Below the pieces are notes generated by a model, which saw only the letters and a list, made by a program, of their open reading frames with translations, was not told where the DNA came from and made no database searches. The translations under genes were made by a program, and so were the position numbers. Source: Pocillopora verrucosa (Eukaryota > Cnidaria > Anthozoa > Scleractinia > Pocilloporidae). Taken from it: a stretch of 64,000 nt of DNA. Where the stretch lies: the NCBI RefSeq assembly GCF_036669915.1, contig NC_089320.1, positions 19,329,964-19,393,963 on the forward strand, given 5' to 3'. Positions within the stretch are counted from its first letter, which is position 1. The number at the start of each line of letters is the position of its first letter. Below are positions 14,958 to 61,000 of this stretch, piece after piece.

Positions 14958-25499
<10,542 letters not shown>

Positions 25500-25849
25500 G
25501 CTGTACTTCAAGAAATCAAAGATCAAAGAAATCACAGTTCTAAATCCACGTGCAGGAGATAGACATTGTGTGCGCATGCGCATTCTTTGGCGCGCTCGGC
25601 GTCATTTTAATATTTTTAGCGCGCTTCTACTTTTTGTGGTATTTTTTGGAGAGGGATGAAAGAGTATGACAAGTTTACCAACAATCCTAACTCTGCGGAT
25701 ACTCGTGGTGTTTTCAAGCTCTTCGGATGTTTTAATGATCAAAGTGCGAACGAAATGCGAAAAAAGCCCGAAAACTTTAAGTTTGAGATTGGATTTACTG
25801 TGGTAATTAAATTATAGACTGTACGATTTTACGCTACTATCTGCGTCGG

Positions 25850-34844: not shown

Positions 34845-37404
34845 ATGAGCCGTGAGAAGCCATCTGTGTTGATAGACATTACTTCTGACACCGTCTGACC
34901 ATGGTAAGTACTGGTAAAATCGATCAGGATTGAAATGATGAGTCATTCTAAGCGTTAACAATTCAGTGAAGCGCAACACTCGTCAGCTGCATGCCCTGCG
35001 GTCAAATCTTGCAACGAACGAGAAGAAATTGCTGTGCGAAGCTGTGATTAAGACGAAAAAATCTTATATCGTGATTAGGAAAAGGAGAAGTAAATTTGAT
35101 ACAGAAAACGGGATTTCACGGGCCTCGGCAAAATATGCCTTAGATTGTGTTGGAAATCGTTTCCAATTAAATCTTCGCCCTTGGCGCTCACACAATTGCA
35201 ATTTTGGGGAAGACCTCAAAAACGCTCTACAGATTGCTAAAAGATATAGGAAACATCCCAAAATTATTCAACGAAAAAAATCTGATATTAGTCAATTTGC
35301 ACACGGAGAGGTGTACAAAATTGAAAATCAGTGGGTGAAGAACTGTAGAAGAAAGGGCCTCTTAATTTATTCATGGAATCCTGTTGTGCCTTTCTTAATT
35401 CTTGAAAGCATTTTAAGTGGCCCTGTATTCCTTAAGCTGTACTGCATTTGGTGATAAACTTTGAATTTGCTCTCCCAAGGCCTTAATATTCCCACACTAC
35501 AGAGCAATGTCAGGCTACATTGCGTTTTAAAAAGATTAGCATCTAATTGTTTTTTATTTGTGGAAGATCGTGTTTGTCACACTTTTGTCAAATAGAATGA
35601 TCATATCCCTTTGTTTTCCTTCAGGTGTTTTGTTGGAAAACGCCATCTGGAGGAGGCCATGAAGGTGTTTTCCAACGACTTGTCATTTGTGGTGACATGG
35701 AAGCCTTTCTTCCTGAACCCTACAACTCCTGAGGCTGGTATACCTCTCATTCAATACCTGACACAAAAATATGGACCAAGGGCAGGTGCCATGGCCAAGG
35801 ATGGAACTAGTCCTCTGACAAAAGCTGGGTTGAATGTGGTAATGATTATAACATCATTTTTGGTATCTAATGCCACATCAAATTAGGAGCTCCCACATTT
35901 TAAGACCCCAGAGAGTGACTAGCATCTAATTTTTCCTTACAATATCATTCCTGAATCGTACTTTAGTATGACAAGTATAAAGAAGAAGCTTTTGATTGTT
36001 AAACAAATTCTCCTTGTCAGCACCATAGGAAATGTAGAGAGAACAGTATGGAGAATATGCATACTGATGTTGGGGTGTAAAGGGCTAACCACACAGGAGT
36101 ACAAAGTGTTAGGTATCAACAAACAGTCAGGGTAGTGTACAAATTAGTGGGATTTTGCTGCCTTTGTTGGATGATTACATTGACAGAGTACTAATTTATC
36201 TTTTGTTCTTCTTTCTCACAATAGGGCATCAATTTCACAACAGATCGTCTCATAGTCAACACTTTAAAATCTCATTGTATGCTGGATTATGCCAAGTCAG
36301 AGGGGAAGCAAAATCTTCTGGCAGAGAACCTTTTCAAAATATATTTTGAACAAGGAAAGAATATCAATTCCACTGATGTTTTGGCTCAAGTTGCAGTGGA
36401 CACTGGGCTCAACATAGATGCTATGGAAAAGTGAGTATCTTTGTCGATAATCTTACCCCTTTCCTACATACAAAAGATTATTGAAATATGATTTTAATAC
36501 TAAACTTAAGTATGCTCATTTCCTTGGGCATGAGCTGTTTTCTTATTATTTACTTGACTAGTTGTTGTATTTACTTTTTAAGATGTTACCACACTTCATA
36601 TTATATTATGTCCATATTAGCATGTCGTACATAGTTTTTTCAGTGCTTGCCTTTGTGCATAGGTCATTTGTTCAGTCAGTGTAATAATAATTTCTCATTA
36701 GTAAATGGTTTGAACCAAGGGGTAATATGTGATAGTGGAGTCTGATAGTTGGGTTTAACAACTCAGTAAAGCCTCTTCATATGAGCCCCGTTGATCAGGC
36801 AGGCCTGGTTTTCAATATCTCAGTGCATCACTAATTCTCTTAAAAAATCCTGATGTGTTAATATGAACAGGTGATCTGGCCTCGGATCCTGAGATCTCGG
36901 TTTTTCCCTGTAAGATCTCAGGAACCAGGCCAGAAGTGTTTTTAGCCCCTTCTCTCATTTAAGTACACAGATTGAAATTTCTCACATGAACCCAAGACAA
37001 AACTTGTCTTGGTTAACAAGCCAGCCTAGTCAACTGGGCTCATGTGAAGAGGCCCTGAGTCATTTATTAAATCCTATTCAGCCTCTCATTTTATAAATTT
37101 CCTATGGAAAACATATTTGGTTTTTAAGTCCAGTTCATGTTCTGAACAACACTCATTATTTTATTAGCCAGTTGTTAACAATGTTTGCATCTTATTTAGG
37201 CACCTGAAGGACAAATCAGTTGTTTCACGAGTGCAAGAGGAAGCCATGGAGGCTCATGATGAAGGAGTCCATGGAGTGCCTTTCTTCAACATCCACCTTA
37301 AAGGAGAAAGCCAGAAGATTGCTGGATTCTCAGGTGCACAACCACCTGAGACATTCAAGAGTATCTTCCAGCAGCTGCTGAATAGATTCAAAGCTAGTGT
37401 TTAA
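34845..37404 (+). CDS. DsbA/FrnE-like thioredoxin-fold candidate selenoprotein (UPWC active site)
   Basis: The family is the DsbA-like thioredoxin fold (FrnE / 2-hydroxychromene-2-carboxylate isomerase relatives), thiol-disulfide oxidoreductases with a CPWC-type site. Four exons at 34845-34903, 35625-35838, 36225-36430 and 37200-37404 join in phase to 228 codons including stop. Codon 18 is an in-frame TGA in TSDTV-TGA-PW, and exon 2 continues with CFVGKRHLEEA. So the active site reads U-P-W-C if TGA is decoded as selenocysteine. Other family marks are TWKPFFLNP, YLTQKYGP, an extended helical insert, and GVPFFNIHL carrying the cis-Pro loop. No targeting signal is evident, so a cytosolic location is inferred. 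A SECIS-like stem-loop follows 321 bases after the stop. Downstream exons are conserved-looking and intact, which argues against a pseudogene. I cannot confirm whether this animal selenoprotein is already described. Confidence 0.9.
34896..34898 (+). other. In-frame TGA, proposed selenocysteine codon (Sec18)
   Basis: It occupies the first Cys position of the C-P-W-C motif and lies five bases before the exon 1 donor (TG|GTAAGT). Three exon junctions follow. If read as stop, the mRNA should be sensitive to nonsense-mediated decay. Confidence 0.88.
35900..36088. repeat. TTAA-family MITE, subfamily B (selenoprotein intron 2)
   Basis: It begins TTAAGACCCCAGAGAGTGAC and ends GGGGTGTAAAGGGCTAA. Internal ATTGTTAAACAAATTCTCCT and CAGTATGGAGAATATGCATA match other subfamily B copies. 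Confidence 0.75.
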
Positions 37405-37708
37405 GGTCACACTTCTGACGTAGTTCTACTCTTTTGCACATTGTTAGCTAATAATACTTTTGAAAAAAGCTTTTAGAGCAAGGGTTTTTTCAGCATTATG
37501 GTATATATATAATCAAGAAAAAAAAAAAGTCTTCTAGGTTACTCAAATCCAGTTTCTGTAGCAATATTTTGACCACTTTCCTTCTAGTTAGCTTGGCTTG
37601 TGCTCATCCAAAGCCTGGATATCTTAAGAGACCAGGCATTGTCTTCTGAAAACTTACCTTTGTTTTAATGCAAGGCTGCTAACTCTTCTAGTCTTCTTGT
37701 ACTTGATG

Positions 37709-37792
37709 AGTTCATGTGTCTAACATGATTACCTTTGAGAAAACCTACTCTCAAGGGTTTGATGATAAGAATCACAAGGAATTCAAGACAGT
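37709..37792 (+). promoter_or_regulatory. SECIS-like element in the selenoprotein 3' UTR
   Basis: The core is ATGA at 37725-37728, then TTACCTTTGAG, an apical loop AAAACCTACT, CTCAAGGGTT, and TGAT at 37760-37763. The arms give nine pairs next to the loop (one G-U), followed by U-U positions, and the loop starts with unpaired A residues as in eukaryotic SECIS elements. Below an internal loop, helix I can form from GAGTTC/GAATTC and TGTG/CACA. All required parts are present in the correct order for selenocysteine insertion through SBP2. Confidence 0.85.
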
Positions 37793-38239
37793 ACAAGACA
37801 ATTGAAACTTAAAACACATTTCAATACACGTTGTATGACACAGTTTAGGCCTACAGTGATATGTTATTTCTTAAGATGGATGTAGTTAGTTAAAATTTCA
37901 AATGAATGCAAAACCCATTGGACCAAGCAGACTGTTTTAACTAGTGTAGTGGTTAGAAAGCTGTAATGTTTTATGAGGCTTGGAACAGTAATGTCACTGA
38001 AGGTCTGTGACTAAATGATTATCTTGGGATAAATTTGTGGTCATTCTAAGATTTGATGTTGACTGTCACAAAGATGTGCAGGGTGTTTGTGAGTGGCCTC
38101 ACGTTAAAATTGATTTGTAAAGGGACTTTTGCACCAGTCATTGGGCATATGAAAGTAACTGTAGACTTAATGTAGATGACAGCTTTGGAGTAAAAGTGCT
38201 TGCTAAAACTTCAGTGTTGCCTTAATTAACTAAATTTCA

Positions 38240-38325
38240 CTCTGAAGAAGGGCTAATGCTCAAAGTGTCAGTTTTGAAACTCTTAGCAGTGGCCAATTTA
38301 TATTATCAACTCAACTTTTACAACC
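38240..38325 (+). repeat. Decayed right-arm fragment of the fold-back family
   Basis: GAAGGGCTAATGCTCAAAGT and GCAGTGGCCAATTTATATTA correspond to the right arm at 15738-15805. Several differences are CpG to TpG/CpA changes. Confidence 0.7.
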
Positions 38326-39033
38326 AAAATCATCTTGCAAACAGTAGGTCAGCCATGCCATGGCACTGGGTCATATAGAAAATGGCTTTTTCAAATAGTT
38401 TGTAGAAAACGTGATGCTTCTATCTGGACACAGGATCACCAAGGGCATGTGATTTAAATGACCATTTTCAAGCATGCAACCAGTTCTGACAAAGAGGGGT
38501 AATATTTCCCCCAGCCCCATCTTAATCAGCTTATTTAGTGTAGAGTACCACTAGTTTGTGGAACATGCCACTGGAATCGAAATCCTGTCGGAAATAGAGT
38601 AAAAATAATGTACAAGGGCCTGTTAGAGTGCAATCTCGTTCGCAGCCAGTTCTACCTTAAGTAAGTGATAAGGAACCTGACTCTTCTTCCCATTCCACTC
38701 CAAAACCTACGGTTTGGGAAAATGAGAGAGCCTGGGCTCTACGAAGCTGGAACTCATGGTCCCGACGAACTAAAACCCTCATTCCCCAACCTCCCTTCCC
38801 CTTCCCTTTATTCTCCCCTGCCTGCTACAGTCAAATATAAAACAAACACAACGTAACAACATCGACTCACCTTAGATATGAAATTTTATTAAAAAGTATA
38901 TAATTATGTATTCACTTTTGAAGAGCGCGCGCTCATCTCTTCCAATAAATAATTTCTTGGCTATGAAATGACCGTTAAGAATTACAATTCATTTATAATC
39001 CGTCCACTAAATAATAATTTCCCAGATTGTACA

Positions 39034-55043: not shown

Positions 55044-58000
55044 TCACAAGGAAGTATCTTCGACCACACTTTTATAATCCTCGTTTCTTAGAATTACAGG
55101 GTCTTCCAACTTGTCCATAGTCATCGCAGTGTTATGAAATGCGCATTCTCCATCGTTTCCTGTGTTGCAATCTCCTGATTCTGCTAGAATTCCCTTTCCA
55201 CAACTTTCTGAAGATGCCCTATTTACATGGGTTGGCGAGATACCATTACGCATGTGCAACTCCACAACATCTCTATGCGTCATTTGATCACGTATTGTCG
55301 TAGGACTGTCCCACGTAAATCTCCTCGGAGCTCTTTTGCCGTTAGACTCGTTTAAATTTACATCTTTGACCAATGTAGGCTTACCATTGCTCTCTAACGA
55401 CAAGGGAGGTGGCTCGGATACCGTTCTCCTGGATCGATGGAATGTGTTTGACATCATTTTTGCCATCGTATCTCGCGTAAGGGCAGCTTTCACAAACTCA
55501 GGTGTATTTTTCTCCGGGTGTAGCAGAATAATGAACAGCTTTGGTGCAAAATTGCAAAGCAGAAAACTAAAAGCGCTACAAAGTTGAGCACAACAGTTCA
55601 AAAACGTTCGAGTCCTCTCTGTCTTTAAGCTTGTAAAGATGGCTATTACAAGGCCCCATGTGATTAACTGAATATACATGGTAAAAGCTATGTACTTTGT
55701 CTCTTTGAAATTGCTTGGCAGTTTTCTAGCTCTAAAAGCGTAACATGTCACCATCAGCGACAAAAAAAGTTCGTATGCATATATAGTAACATGAATTATC
55801 TCTCCAACGATAGACTCATTGTGTTCACACGTAATAGTCTTATGATGGAGTGGTACTATAATTACATGAACGCTGGGAGGTTCAAAAAATAGGAGGACGA
55901 TAATGAAAACCACAGGTAAAATATTAAGAGATCCAAGAGCTATAAACTGATACTTTCTGTTGTAAATCCAGCAAGACTTCGACGATACAGCCCCCTGGAA
56001 ATCAAATACATGAAGCAAGCGAGCAGTTTTCAGAAACAAAATTGAGAGGCTAATGTTGACGCAAATTGGGACAACGAACATGTATGCCGTGCATAAAAAC
56101 GGAGTCGGCTTAAAAATGAGAAAGCAAGCTGCCAAGAAAGCTACAAAAATGTTCAGCAAAAACACATAGCTGAGTTCTTGATTTGAAGATTTTACTATCG
56201 GAGTTGTACGGTATTTCACAAATACTCCAAACGTTAGTAAAGTAAGGATGACACCAATTGCCGCAGCCACTAATAAGCCGATGCCTTGAGGATCATCAGG
56301 AGATAAATTATTCAGCGGAAGAGGCTCACACGCTGTATTGCCTTGATTGGGCTTTTCATCTGCTAAACAAGCTGTGCAGTTTGTTGAGCTGTAACTTGTA
56401 CTTACTGAGCCAGACCGACAAGGGATACATTCCCAGCAACAATTCATGATTGCAGATTGTCTCGTACCTGGAGGACACGACTCACTGCAACGAGAAGATG
56501 GAACAACCTTGCTGCCATTGTTCCACACTAACAGCTCCCTCTTAAGCTGTAATCTCTGCTCATTAAATCTACCCCAGGTTCCCACCTGTTTAAGAATAGG
56601 AGTTTCCCCTGGAACGAGCTGGTAGTTGACGATATCGTATGCTACTGAACGCAGAGAATCCCCGTTTTCGTTAAAGCTAATATCACCCGTCAGTCCCTGA
56701 AATTGAACATTCCTCAGAAAGCGTAACACATTGTCGGCGAGAGCATTTGAAAGTGGGCATGTGGTTTTAGACAAGTTGTATGGGCCTTGTTGGCAGCGGT
56801 AAACTGCATCAATTGCATGCGCAGCAGCCTGAACCGCATCAATGACGTAAGCTGAGGTTGTAGAGTGCATGATTGAAAATAAATCCTCGTTTATCCTGGT
56901 CAGCTGATCTCCGCAACCCTTCCAAGGAAACTGAGAGCAGTTGTTCACTTGTTGCCAAAATTCTTTCGACCATTCATTTTGAAAGCGCGGTGAAGACGCG
57001 TTGATAGACACGAAATCCTCTTCGAAGCCGGATGCGTTGAAACGGCGAAAAGTAGTTCCGATGACTGCACTGTACTCAAGAGAATATAAGGATGTTAACA
57101 CAGAAGTTGCTTCTGACCAGCCATCCGGAGCGATCCAAGTACGATCAAACAATTTCTGTTTATAACATTCCTGGAAGAAATAATGAAGAGTTGAAATGCC
57201 TCCCGTCCAAAGCAAGATGACTTTGACAGTGGTTGCCTTTTTCAACCTTGTGACGATTCTCTGAATTTTGTTTTCGTAATTTGCGGAAGGGATGTAATCT
57301 ATGCTGTGAATACAGAAAGTGTTTCGCTCATGTGCTACATGCTCCAAAGCTCTTACGCCATATCTTCCGTAAGAGCTGTCGCTACCGATTACCCAAATGT
57401 AAGTCCAATTGAAATAGTTGATGACATCACTGATTGCTACGGCTTGTTGACTGTCCGGGGGTACAGTGCGGAAAAATGTCTCGTAATAAGGTAGGCTTAG
57501 CTCGTCACTTGTTGCCGAAGGACTGATAAGTGCCGTGTTCCCAGCTTGTAGCATACTTGCCACGACAACTGAACTAGCAGAATCACTCGGACCAATGACC
57601 GCTGCAATTGGACGAGTTGAAACATTTACGAGGCATGAGCTGAAAACCTGTTCGTCTGGAGTGGTTGCGTTAGACACATCACCGCGTTCGGTTGGAGTGT
57701 TATCAGTCACCAATGAGAATGCCATGGCGTTTGCTCTTGAAGGAATTCCACAGGTGTCAAAAATCCGATAGCCCAGTGTTATATTCGGAAGTAGATACGG
57801 GCTCTTATTTACCTGGTCAATTGCGTAAACCATAGCTTGTGCATTAGCAAACTCCTGAATGTTCAATAAAGTAGCGCATTCATCGTCTGCAGTTTTCCTG
57901 TGAAGACTGAAGAGACCGACTACTAAAACATCACCATACTTGCAGTCTTCGTAAAAGGGTTTTTCTTTCCAACCTTTGGAAAAAGCACCCGATATGATAG

Positions 58001-58046
58001 CGGCGAAGAGAGAGATTTTTAGCGTTAGTTTGTACGAAGTTCGCAT
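55044..58046 (-). CDS. Intronless class C GPCR, metabotropic glutamate receptor-like
   Basis: A single uninterrupted frame encodes 1000 residues of a plasma-membrane receptor. In order: a signal peptide (about 1-23), a Venus-flytrap ligand domain to about 490 (ISPSATSDELS, RTVPPDSQQA, NWTYIWVIGSDSSYG), then a cysteine-rich NCD3G linker at about 515-570 (CSESCPPGTRQ, CCWECIPC, NCTAC). A seven-helix domain follows at about 587-840, starting GIGLLVAAAIGVIL and ending PKLFIILLHPEKN. The cytosolic tail is ~160 residues. The SATS motif is where mGluRs bind the amino-acid backbone, so an amino-acid ligand is plausible but unproven. CaSR-like or orphan class C membership is possible. The lack of introns contrasts with every other conserved gene here and suggests origin by retroposition or an intronless family expansion. 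Confidence 0.93.
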   Translation of the reverse strand: MRTSYKLTLKISLFAAIISGAFSKGWKEKPFYEDCKYGDVLVVGLFSLHRKTADDECATLLNIQEFANAQAMVYAIDQVNKSPYLLPNITLGYRIFDTCGIPSRANAMAFSLVTDNTPTERGDVSNATTPDEQVFSSCLVNVSTRPIAAVIGPSDSASSVVVASMLQAGNTALISPSATSDELSLPYYETFFRTVPPDSQQAVAISDVINYFNWTYIWVIGSDSSYGRYGVRALEHVAHERNTFCIHSIDYIPSANYENKIQRIVTRLKKATTVKVILLWTGGISTLHYFFQECYKQKLFDRTWIAPDGWSEATSVLTSLYSLEYSAVIGTTFRRFNASGFEEDFVSINASSPRFQNEWSKEFWQQVNNCSQFPWKGCGDQLTRINEDLFSIMHSTTSAYVIDAVQAAAHAIDAVYRCQQGPYNLSKTTCPLSNALADNVLRFLRNVQFQGLTGDISFNENGDSLRSVAYDIVNYQLVPGETPILKQVGTWGRFNEQRLQLKRELLVWNNGSKVVPSSRCSESCPPGTRQSAIMNCCWECIPCRSGSVSTSYSSTNCTACLADEKPNQGNTACEPLPLNNLSPDDPQGIGLLVAAAIGVILTLLTFGVFVKYRTTPIVKSSNQELSYVFLLNIFVAFLAACFLIFKPTPFLCTAYMFVVPICVNISLSILFLKTARLLHVFDFQGAVSSKSCWIYNRKYQFIALGSLNILPVVFIIVLLFFEPPSVHVIIVPLHHKTITCEHNESIVGEIIHVTIYAYELFLSLMVTCYAFRARKLPSNFKETKYIAFTMYIQLITWGLVIAIFTSLKTERTRTFLNCCAQLCSAFSFLLCNFAPKLFIILLHPEKNTPEFVKAALTRDTMAKMMSNTFHRSRRTVSEPPPLSLESNGKPTLVKDVNLNESNGKRAPRRFTWDSPTTIRDQMTHRDVVELHMRNGISPTHVNRASSESCGKGILAESGDCNTGNDGECAFHNTAMTMDKLEDPVILRNEDYKSVVEDTSL

Positions 58047-61000
58047 TATGGCCCCAAATGAAACAATTCTAGAACCTTAATTACATATTCATAACCTTCT
58101 CTTGGGAACTCTAAAAAAATTTGCCTGACAATAGACTATTGTAAGCCTAACTGTAAACAACAATTCATTTCATTTTTTTTATTCAAAGACTTTGAAACAA
58201 TAACGTAAATGTTTTCCTTAAGTTCAATTCTCTAGCAACAGTTCTGAGAAACAATGACAGTTTTACGGTGGGGTACTTCTAGCAAGCAAAATTCTTCACG
58301 CCAATAAAATTTTATTTTTCTGCCAGCCTCATGTGAACCTAGCACATGCCTTGGGGCCTGTTAACCTAGTCTCTGTTGCCCACTAAGCAGAACGTCTGAC
58401 TGTGTAATCGAAATTTAAGTGAGTGTGGTTTTCTTTGGCGTCTAATAATGATTCTTTATATTCTACCAGTACCACAGCGAGGTGATTTTGAAATGACCAA
58501 TCGTAAGCCGGTCAAATTTGACTAAAATTTAGTAATTATAAACGTCTCTGTTTCTAGTTTCTATTTCGTTATTCCTTCTTGTCCTTTATTTATTCCTTAA
58601 CGTGTTGCTTGGGTAACTTTAAGGAAAAGTTTAATAGAACTTTAGTTTGGTTCGGTCGACAACAGACCAATTTTGATTGCATTGAACTTAATCAAGAGTT
58701 TAGAAACGTTCTTCGCTGCGTCACCATGAATAACTTGAAATATTGCCTGTTATAATTTGAGTACTCACATCGCATTATCCACAAACTTACTGGGTTCCGA
58801 ATCCGTGACCTGTACCAGAAGCTCTAGGGTGAAATAGCTCAGAGTTCGTTCGCATCCTTGTTGCACAAATAAGCAGCTTGCGCTATCTTCCAGCTCTATC
58901 CATCGTTTGTCTTGTTTTAATTGTCTCTAAATCAGTTGAGGAATAGCAGAGCACGAGCTTGCCAACACGCGAGAACATAGCGAGGAGCGCTCGACGCCAC
59001 GCGAGAACAAGCGTAGTATGCGAAACCGACGGCGGAGGTGAGTAAACATTCGTGATCAGCATAAATTATATGTAAAACCGAACACAATCCTGATTTAGCT
59101 CGCAGACCATCATTTTATTTTATTTTATTTCAAATTCACCATCATGTCATTCTGTCTGATACGCTGAATACTTTCGGTGGTTCCAAACGTATGCACTCCT
59201 GTTTTATAAGAACGTTCAAGCTGAGATCAACCAACAGGAGAGTCAGTTATTTTGCACATTTTTTGGGAAAAGTATAAATAAAAGTAAAAGAATGCAAAAC
59301 TGTGGTCTTACAGGATCATTAGTTCAAATACATAGGGGACATTCTTAAACCCTAACCGTGATGTGGTTTTCGTATTGCATGATACACTGAAAAACAACTC
59401 AGTTTGCGGTCGATCTTAGTCTAGTCAATGAAATATAATACCACAGAAATTTAAGAAAAAGTTAAGAACGTTGTCAGGCTCAAATCATACAAAAAATAAG
59501 AACGTTCAGCCTCAGCTCCAAAATGAAATGTTTCTTAAGAAAAAGAAAAGAAAAAAGAGATAATGATTTCTCACACGACGGTCTCGAGTGTCCTGCACCG
59601 ATCAAGTAGAAGTGGTGAACTTCTGGCCAACACCGAGTCGCAAGCTCACGGTAGTTTCCGTTTTAATTTTTCAGTTCGAAAATAAGAAACAAGAACAACA
59701 ACTTTATTTTTCCACGATGTTCAATTATCAGGAAGAAAACCATTCATCATTAATGAACCAATGCTTAAATGAATCTTAAGAAATTCCAGTAAGTTACAAC
59801 CAGTACTAATTAAAAATTCTGAGGATCGTTAATGACTTTATAGGGAAACGTGCCCGCTCTCAATGAATGTTTTAGATTATACTGGACTACATGGATTCAA
59901 AAGGTAAGAGAAAATGTTCATGCATTGCCGCAGCTCAACGGGTAGACTATTCCAACGGGCTTATCATCTAGGCAAAGTTGATTGAGGGTGATGGAGTTAC
60001 GGATCTGCCTCGGTACCTGTTGCAATCATTCTTTATTAAAAAGACTCTCATACTCGTGTTACTCTCACTTCTTTGGACCTAGCCTTTCAATCTTATAACG
60101 TGTGAATTTTAATTGCGTATTAAATAAATCATTCACCTCTTCATCGTGCTATAATTACTTTTGTACATCAAAATAAAAATTCTCCCGAGATCAGTTTAGG
60201 GCTTGAATTAATCATACAATAAACCTTTATACCTGAAGCGAAGAGTAAAGCGCGCCAATTTGGATTCATTGAAATGGGTGGAGAGGATTAGGGTTAAAAT
60301 GCGCCACTTATTTTGAACCCGGCGGGATGTACCTCCCATACTGCGGCCTCATTCCAAGAAGAAAATGGTTAATTGATATCTGTTTTTCAATTTTTACTTA
60401 GGTTACAAAAAATAAGATTCATGTCCGTCTCACGCAACATGCTGTAACACAGGGGGTAATGACCTGGATAAAATTGTAAAATGTTCACTCATTGTCGGAC
60501 TTATTCCTACTTTTAGTTTGGAAGGATACAGAACCCGGCTCCAGCTTTCCGAACGGCCCCCTTAGGTCATTAAATATTCTGTCTATAATTAAACGGTAAA
60601 TGAAAAACTTAAAGAGGGCACACAGTATATTGACCTTAGTACGTGAGCGTACTGATTCGCACGAGACTGACTGTGCCTTATATATAAAATGTGTTCTCTC
60701 CTGTGCCAAGAAGTTATTCATGGTGATTCGACCTAAAGAATTCTTTACAAATTTCTTCAATCGACCTCGATCTCCGTGAGACCTCGATTGAAACAGAATC
60801 CATGTTCCATGGCAGGCAGATACTACCATAGAGGGATGTCACACGCCTAATTAAATGAAAAGGGTTTTACACGAAAACACACGTTGCTTTGGTTTTGCAT
60901 TTTCTCGCAAAATATGTGATCCATGATCGTAAACAATGTTCTTTAAAAGAAAACGGAGCGATTAGGATGTGACTGGAGGTACATTTTGTAACGTCCGATC

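Follow-up and report, generated by a model that had tools for sequence, protein, structure and literature searches.

A candidate selenoprotein gene of the animal Sec-DsbA/FrnE family in the coral Pocillopora verrucosa

A locus in the genome of Pocillopora verrucosa (353 Mb, 52 contigs) was analysed within a 64-kb stretch of DNA, here called the window, and, as judged from its sequence, it is in all likelihood a true selenoprotein gene of an animal. We regard its identification as an anthozoan selenoprotein gene of the metazoan Sec-DsbA/FrnE family as highly probable. The reading of an in-frame TGA as selenocysteine (Sec) is supported by the exact replacement of a catalytic Cys, the intact exons downstream of it, two SECIS-like elements in the 3′ flank, genes for tRNA-Sec and SepSecS elsewhere in this genome, and database gene models that break at this site in 13 of 17 other members of the same clade. 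The gene is a new member of a known family and is not new in kind.

Joining of four exons at GT/AG borders yielded a single frame of 684 bases, the sole internal stop of which is the TGA, and the spliced product of 227 codons is a FrnE-type DsbA protein. The features of the gene are:

34845..34903, plus strand: exon 1, opening with the ATG and comprising codons 1-19 plus the initial two bases of codon 20; donor TG/GTAAGT
34896..34898, plus strand: in-frame TGA, candidate Sec18 of the UPWC active site, aligned with the first Cys of CPWC in FrnE and relatives
35625..35838, plus strand: exon 2, starting inside W20 and continuing with CFVGKRHLEE; join to exon 3 as in the database protein P0001
36225..36430, plus strand: exon 3, across which P0001 is uninterrupted
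37200..37404, plus strand: exon 4, with VPF (presumed cis-Pro loop) and the stop TAA at 37402-37404

The TGA, in the exon 1 context ...ITSDTV-TGA-PW, was read by eye as codon 18 of the ATG-started frame, and an in-frame TAA, likewise read by eye, is located 9 bases upstream of the ATG. With Sec at the TGA the translation runs ...SDTVUPWCFVGKRHLEE..., and besides Sec18 and Cys21 the protein contains one further Cys, Cys109. Two stop-free joins existed for the end of exon 2 (35835 and 35838); the former was rejected and the end was set to 35838, since only this join yields the LNVGI found in the expressed relative P0001. A second copy of the gene was not found in the window by local tblastn (next best E 0.39).

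The protein matched the Pfam family DSBA over residues 21-227 (7.6e-25), and the best of three matches in a search of solved structures was FrnE (PDB 5cp1/5cnw; 3.6e-29, residues 7-218). In the FrnE alignment residue 18, encoded by the TGA, is paired with the first Cys of the CPWC motif, and the GVPFF stretch with the matching loop, which we take to be the cis-Pro loop; a whole-length DSBA domain, the UPWC motif and this loop are all present. While the CPWC and GVPFF positions of 5cnw and 5cp1 match the coral protein, FrnE has Cys where the coral protein would have Sec and comprises 260 residues instead of 227. A preliminary description of the locus, made from the sequence alone, had noted that the TGA stands precisely where CPWC has its first Cys, and had followed the frame through three further exons to a normal stop; the frame together with the FrnE alignment bears out the former, and the 684-base frame ending at TAA 37402-37404 the latter. 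Searches of NCBIfam with five relatives returned only matches far below the cut-off, to a seleno-lipoprotein family in two of the five.

Relatives were collected by a protein search (120 listed of 156 matches) and a profile search (120 listed of 786), which when pooled gave 190 different proteins among the matches listed. The residue at the site was Cys in 125 of these and Trp in four (P0006, P0009, P0110 and P0244), while the motif was unreadable in 61. The in-frame UGA is aligned with a Cys that is conserved in homologues, and among the 129 listed relatives with a readable motif the 125 with Cys include Trichoplax. The closest named matches among those listed came from Oculina (81% identity at 57% query coverage), Montipora (72% identity at 86% coverage) and Acropora (68% identity, likewise at 86% coverage). 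Among prokaryotes, 80 loci were kept of at least 528 confirmed, with the site codon TGC in 67 and TGT in 13 and with a Sec codon in none of the 80, although bacterial Sec forms exist in the literature. Eleven stretches in viral contigs fitted a search pattern, none of which was confirmed as a relative.

A tree was calculated from 31 rows chosen from the listed relatives, bilaterian sequences not being among them, and it contained a cnidarian-placozoan clade of 18 rows including the window (support 100/98), several rows of which were assigned by tree placement alone. Besides the window, ten of the other 17 rows start downstream of the site, P0001 among them, and three (Exaiptasia, Nematostella and Rhopilema) carry an unrelated N-terminus joined at Cys21 (CFVGK), so that 13 of these 17 have models interrupted at one and the same point; the remainder have Trp (P0006, P0009 and P0244) or, in Trichoplax, Cys at the site. 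Because the active site is absent from these 13 database proteins, the nature of the enzyme is hidden in public annotation. P0001, which stands for 49 member sequences and a contig of 1817 bases, is 99% identical over 86% of the coral protein; its start is the Met that comes first behind the TGA, which leaves exon 1 uncovered, but it is uninterrupted over exons 2-4 and therefore appears to derive from spliced RNA. In P0006, P0009 and P0244 the parts corresponding to exon 1 and exon 2 are uninterrupted. Splicing of exon 1 to exon 2 is predicted for P. verrucosa. The fourth protein with Trp, P0110, clusters with a plant row and a green-algal row. P0244 and P0012 form a second coral lineage of the family in the tree (100/100), and since its motif reads WPWC, P0244 may represent a second Sec gene.

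In the 3′ flank, two SECIS-like hairpins were located upstream of the two earliest poly(A)-signal words that follow the stop codon:

37716..37775, plus strand: SECIS-like element 1, with ATGA at 37725, apical AAAA and TGA at 37760
38007..38069, plus strand: SECIS-like element 2, with ATGA at 38015, apical AAA and TGA at 38054
38888..38949, plus strand: the earliest pair of poly(A)-signal words downstream of the stop codon, ATTAAA at 38888 and AATAAA at 38944

The preliminary description had mentioned one SECIS-like stem-loop in this flank; its presence is confirmed, but there are two, both of them beyond 37404, where the described region ended. The Rfam model SECIS_1 covers each hairpin at full length (model positions 1-64 of 64) with 18.4 bits, which is below the curated cut-off of 35 bits, and with E-values of 0.86 and 0.87 in a search of 501 bases; neither was listed in a wider search of 6.2 kb reporting up to E 10. 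The first element is better folded than the second: its helix II has -13.1 kcal/mol and its fold a z-score of -4.1, compared with -7.1 kcal/mol and only -1.2 for the second, which was equalled or surpassed in folding by 26 of 200 shuffles. On a stretch of 72 bases, a local 5′ hairpin is favoured over helix I of the first element, and this helix forms in a longer fold. Within the window a loose SECIS pattern gave 8 plus-strand and 11 minus-strand matches, and none of these sites was more stable than the one at 37725 (-13.1 kcal/mol), which ranked first. With a strict pattern (ATGA, AA or CC, TGA or GGA, and helix II of -7 kcal/mol or better), the thresholds of which were chosen after the candidates had been seen, three matches remained, two of them on the plus strand (37725 and 38015) and one on the minus strand (36958). 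Among 1000 dinucleotide shuffles of the flank 37405-38949, seven contained at least one strict match and none contained two, and a helix II of -13 kcal/mol was not reached in any of the 1000.

The two elements can be aligned over about 80 bases, and none of 2000 shuffles aligned as well; with the core motifs masked the alignment was equalled by 40 of 2000 shuffles, and for this reason their common descent is only suggested. What sets the locus apart is a single feature, the tandem SECIS pair of a one-Sec gene, and precedents are known from other families: two SECIS are described on the one-Sec genes Ciona SelW1, Nematostella Gpx_a, amphioxus DI_b and human Sep15, with the upstream SECIS of Sep15 described as nonfunctional. 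These resemble the coral gene in having two elements and belong, as described, to other families. It is conceivable, and on balance doubtful, that the pair is a tandem duplication kept in the coral lineage and that both elements act on the single UGA, only 18 codons from the start, raising the output of the N-terminal Sec or tuning it to selenium. An inverted-repeat hairpin was also seen in intron 3 (36875-36935), with mir-605 as the best Rfam match (30.8 bits versus a cut-off of 98); all Rfam matches to microRNAs, snoRNAs and ribozymes in the region were under their cut-offs.

The machinery for selenocysteine is represented in the same genome by two tRNA-SeC genes and by SepSecS. Both tRNA genes have the anticodon TCA and reach a score of 77.8 bits, the cut-off being 47; they are located at:

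contig C2, 873038-873123: tRNA-SeC gene
contig C4, 13864413-13864498: tRNA-SeC gene

The two, which were also read by eye, are identical over the match of 86 bases and differ in their flanks. The tRNA-Sec model gave 19 matches in the genome, three of them over the cut-off, the third being a tRNA-Ser. As this model also gave matches in 14 of 14 control genomes, in five of them over the cut-off, the tRNA-Sec call is based on ARAGORN and the anticodon. For SepSecS, six exon matches were found in a row on contig C1, with a model that gave matches in 3 of 14 control genomes, Bacillus subtilis included; the RNA and SepSecS models are unspecific at low scores. A separate FrnE-type exon at C2:4472680-4472865 reads CPWC with the Cys codons tgc and tgt and is, to judge by these codons, a Cys paralogue in the same animal.

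The TGA could alternatively be a true stop, with the protein beginning at Met32 (MKVFSND) and the catalytic motif lost, as the start of P0001 and nine other clade rows downstream of the site would suggest. However, exon 1 retains the sequence of the first strand of FrnE (VLIDITSD), P0006, P0009 and P0244 have a full N-terminus through the site, and SECIS-like elements, tRNA-Sec and SepSecS are all present; moreover, a DsbA fold devoid of its first strand and active site would be implausible. A true stop is therefore considered very unlikely. We see a smaller chance still for readthrough of the UGA as another residue such as Trp, independently of a SECIS. Four of the 190 listed relatives do show W at the site, but a gene caller using genetic code 4 prints W for TGA, and the Trp in P0006, P0009 and P0244 is probably a TGA translated in this way; in addition, the residue that usually alternates with Cys at sites of this kind is Sec, and Cys is the residue in 125 of the 129 readable listed relatives. 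It is barely credible that the TGA reflects an error of sequencing, or a newly arisen null allele in a gene with Cys: one base separates TGA from TGT and TGC, yet 13 of 17 other clade rows have models broken at this very point, and there are two SECIS-like elements downstream. The selenocysteine decoding put forward in the preliminary description is thus supported as far as genomic and database sequences can tell.

For the Sec-encoding gene, the following mechanism is proposed. Exon 1 would be spliced to exon 2, placing the TGA in the coding mRNA, and the UGA would be recoded as Sec by the SECIS-bound complex, which consists of SBP2, eEFSec and tRNA-Sec. The product would adopt a thioredoxin fold that includes a helical insert, and Sec18, together with the resolving Cys21 near the cis-Pro loop (VPF), would carry out thiol/disulfide exchange; disulfide exchange or isomerase activity of the coral protein is predicted from its family. 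A location in the cytosol is probable, since a signal peptide was not seen by eye. The corrected gene model would allow the redox role of the enzyme to be studied in reef-building corals.

The preliminary description had named no characterised metazoan member of the subfamily and had left novelty uncertain, which is answered by animal Sec-DsbA/FrnE proteins published in 2010 and 2012. Sec-DsbA was reported in 2010 for Ciona intestinalis, C. savignyi and Branchiostoma floridae (PMC2874816). As described there, these genes resemble the coral gene in having Sec for the upstream active-site Cys and a SECIS downstream, and in earlier models the exon with Sec had been assigned to the 5′ UTR; they differ in that the animals are chordates and in having one SECIS per gene versus two in the coral, the comparison being one by description (PMC2874816). 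In 2012, Sec-DsbA was listed for Nematostella vectensis (two genes), Lottia, Capitella and amphioxus, and Cys forms of DsbA for Amphimedon and Trichoplax (PMC3473315). Nematostella is also anthozoan and its Sec-DsbA is of the same family (PMC3473315). The coral gene adds a new species and locus to Sec-DsbA in animals, as a case from corals with good support; the Nematostella relative P0014 (46% identity) is without the Sec exon. FrnE (DsbA) is counted among the animal selenoprotein families in SelenoDB 2.0 (PMC3965025), and Sec-FrnE has been published for Mamiellophyceae; the remaining literature sources are PMC6627142, PMC7539508 and PMC3640398. A study of an Acropora genome found partial dsbA models and suggested that poor prediction might be due to selenoproteins.

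Two neighbouring regions of the window were also noted, both on the minus strand. Open reading frames at 16532-25601 were recognised by eye as presumably resembling exons of the purine-synthesis gene GART, and a long single class C GPCR reading frame at 55047-58076 is 98% identical to the database protein P0121.
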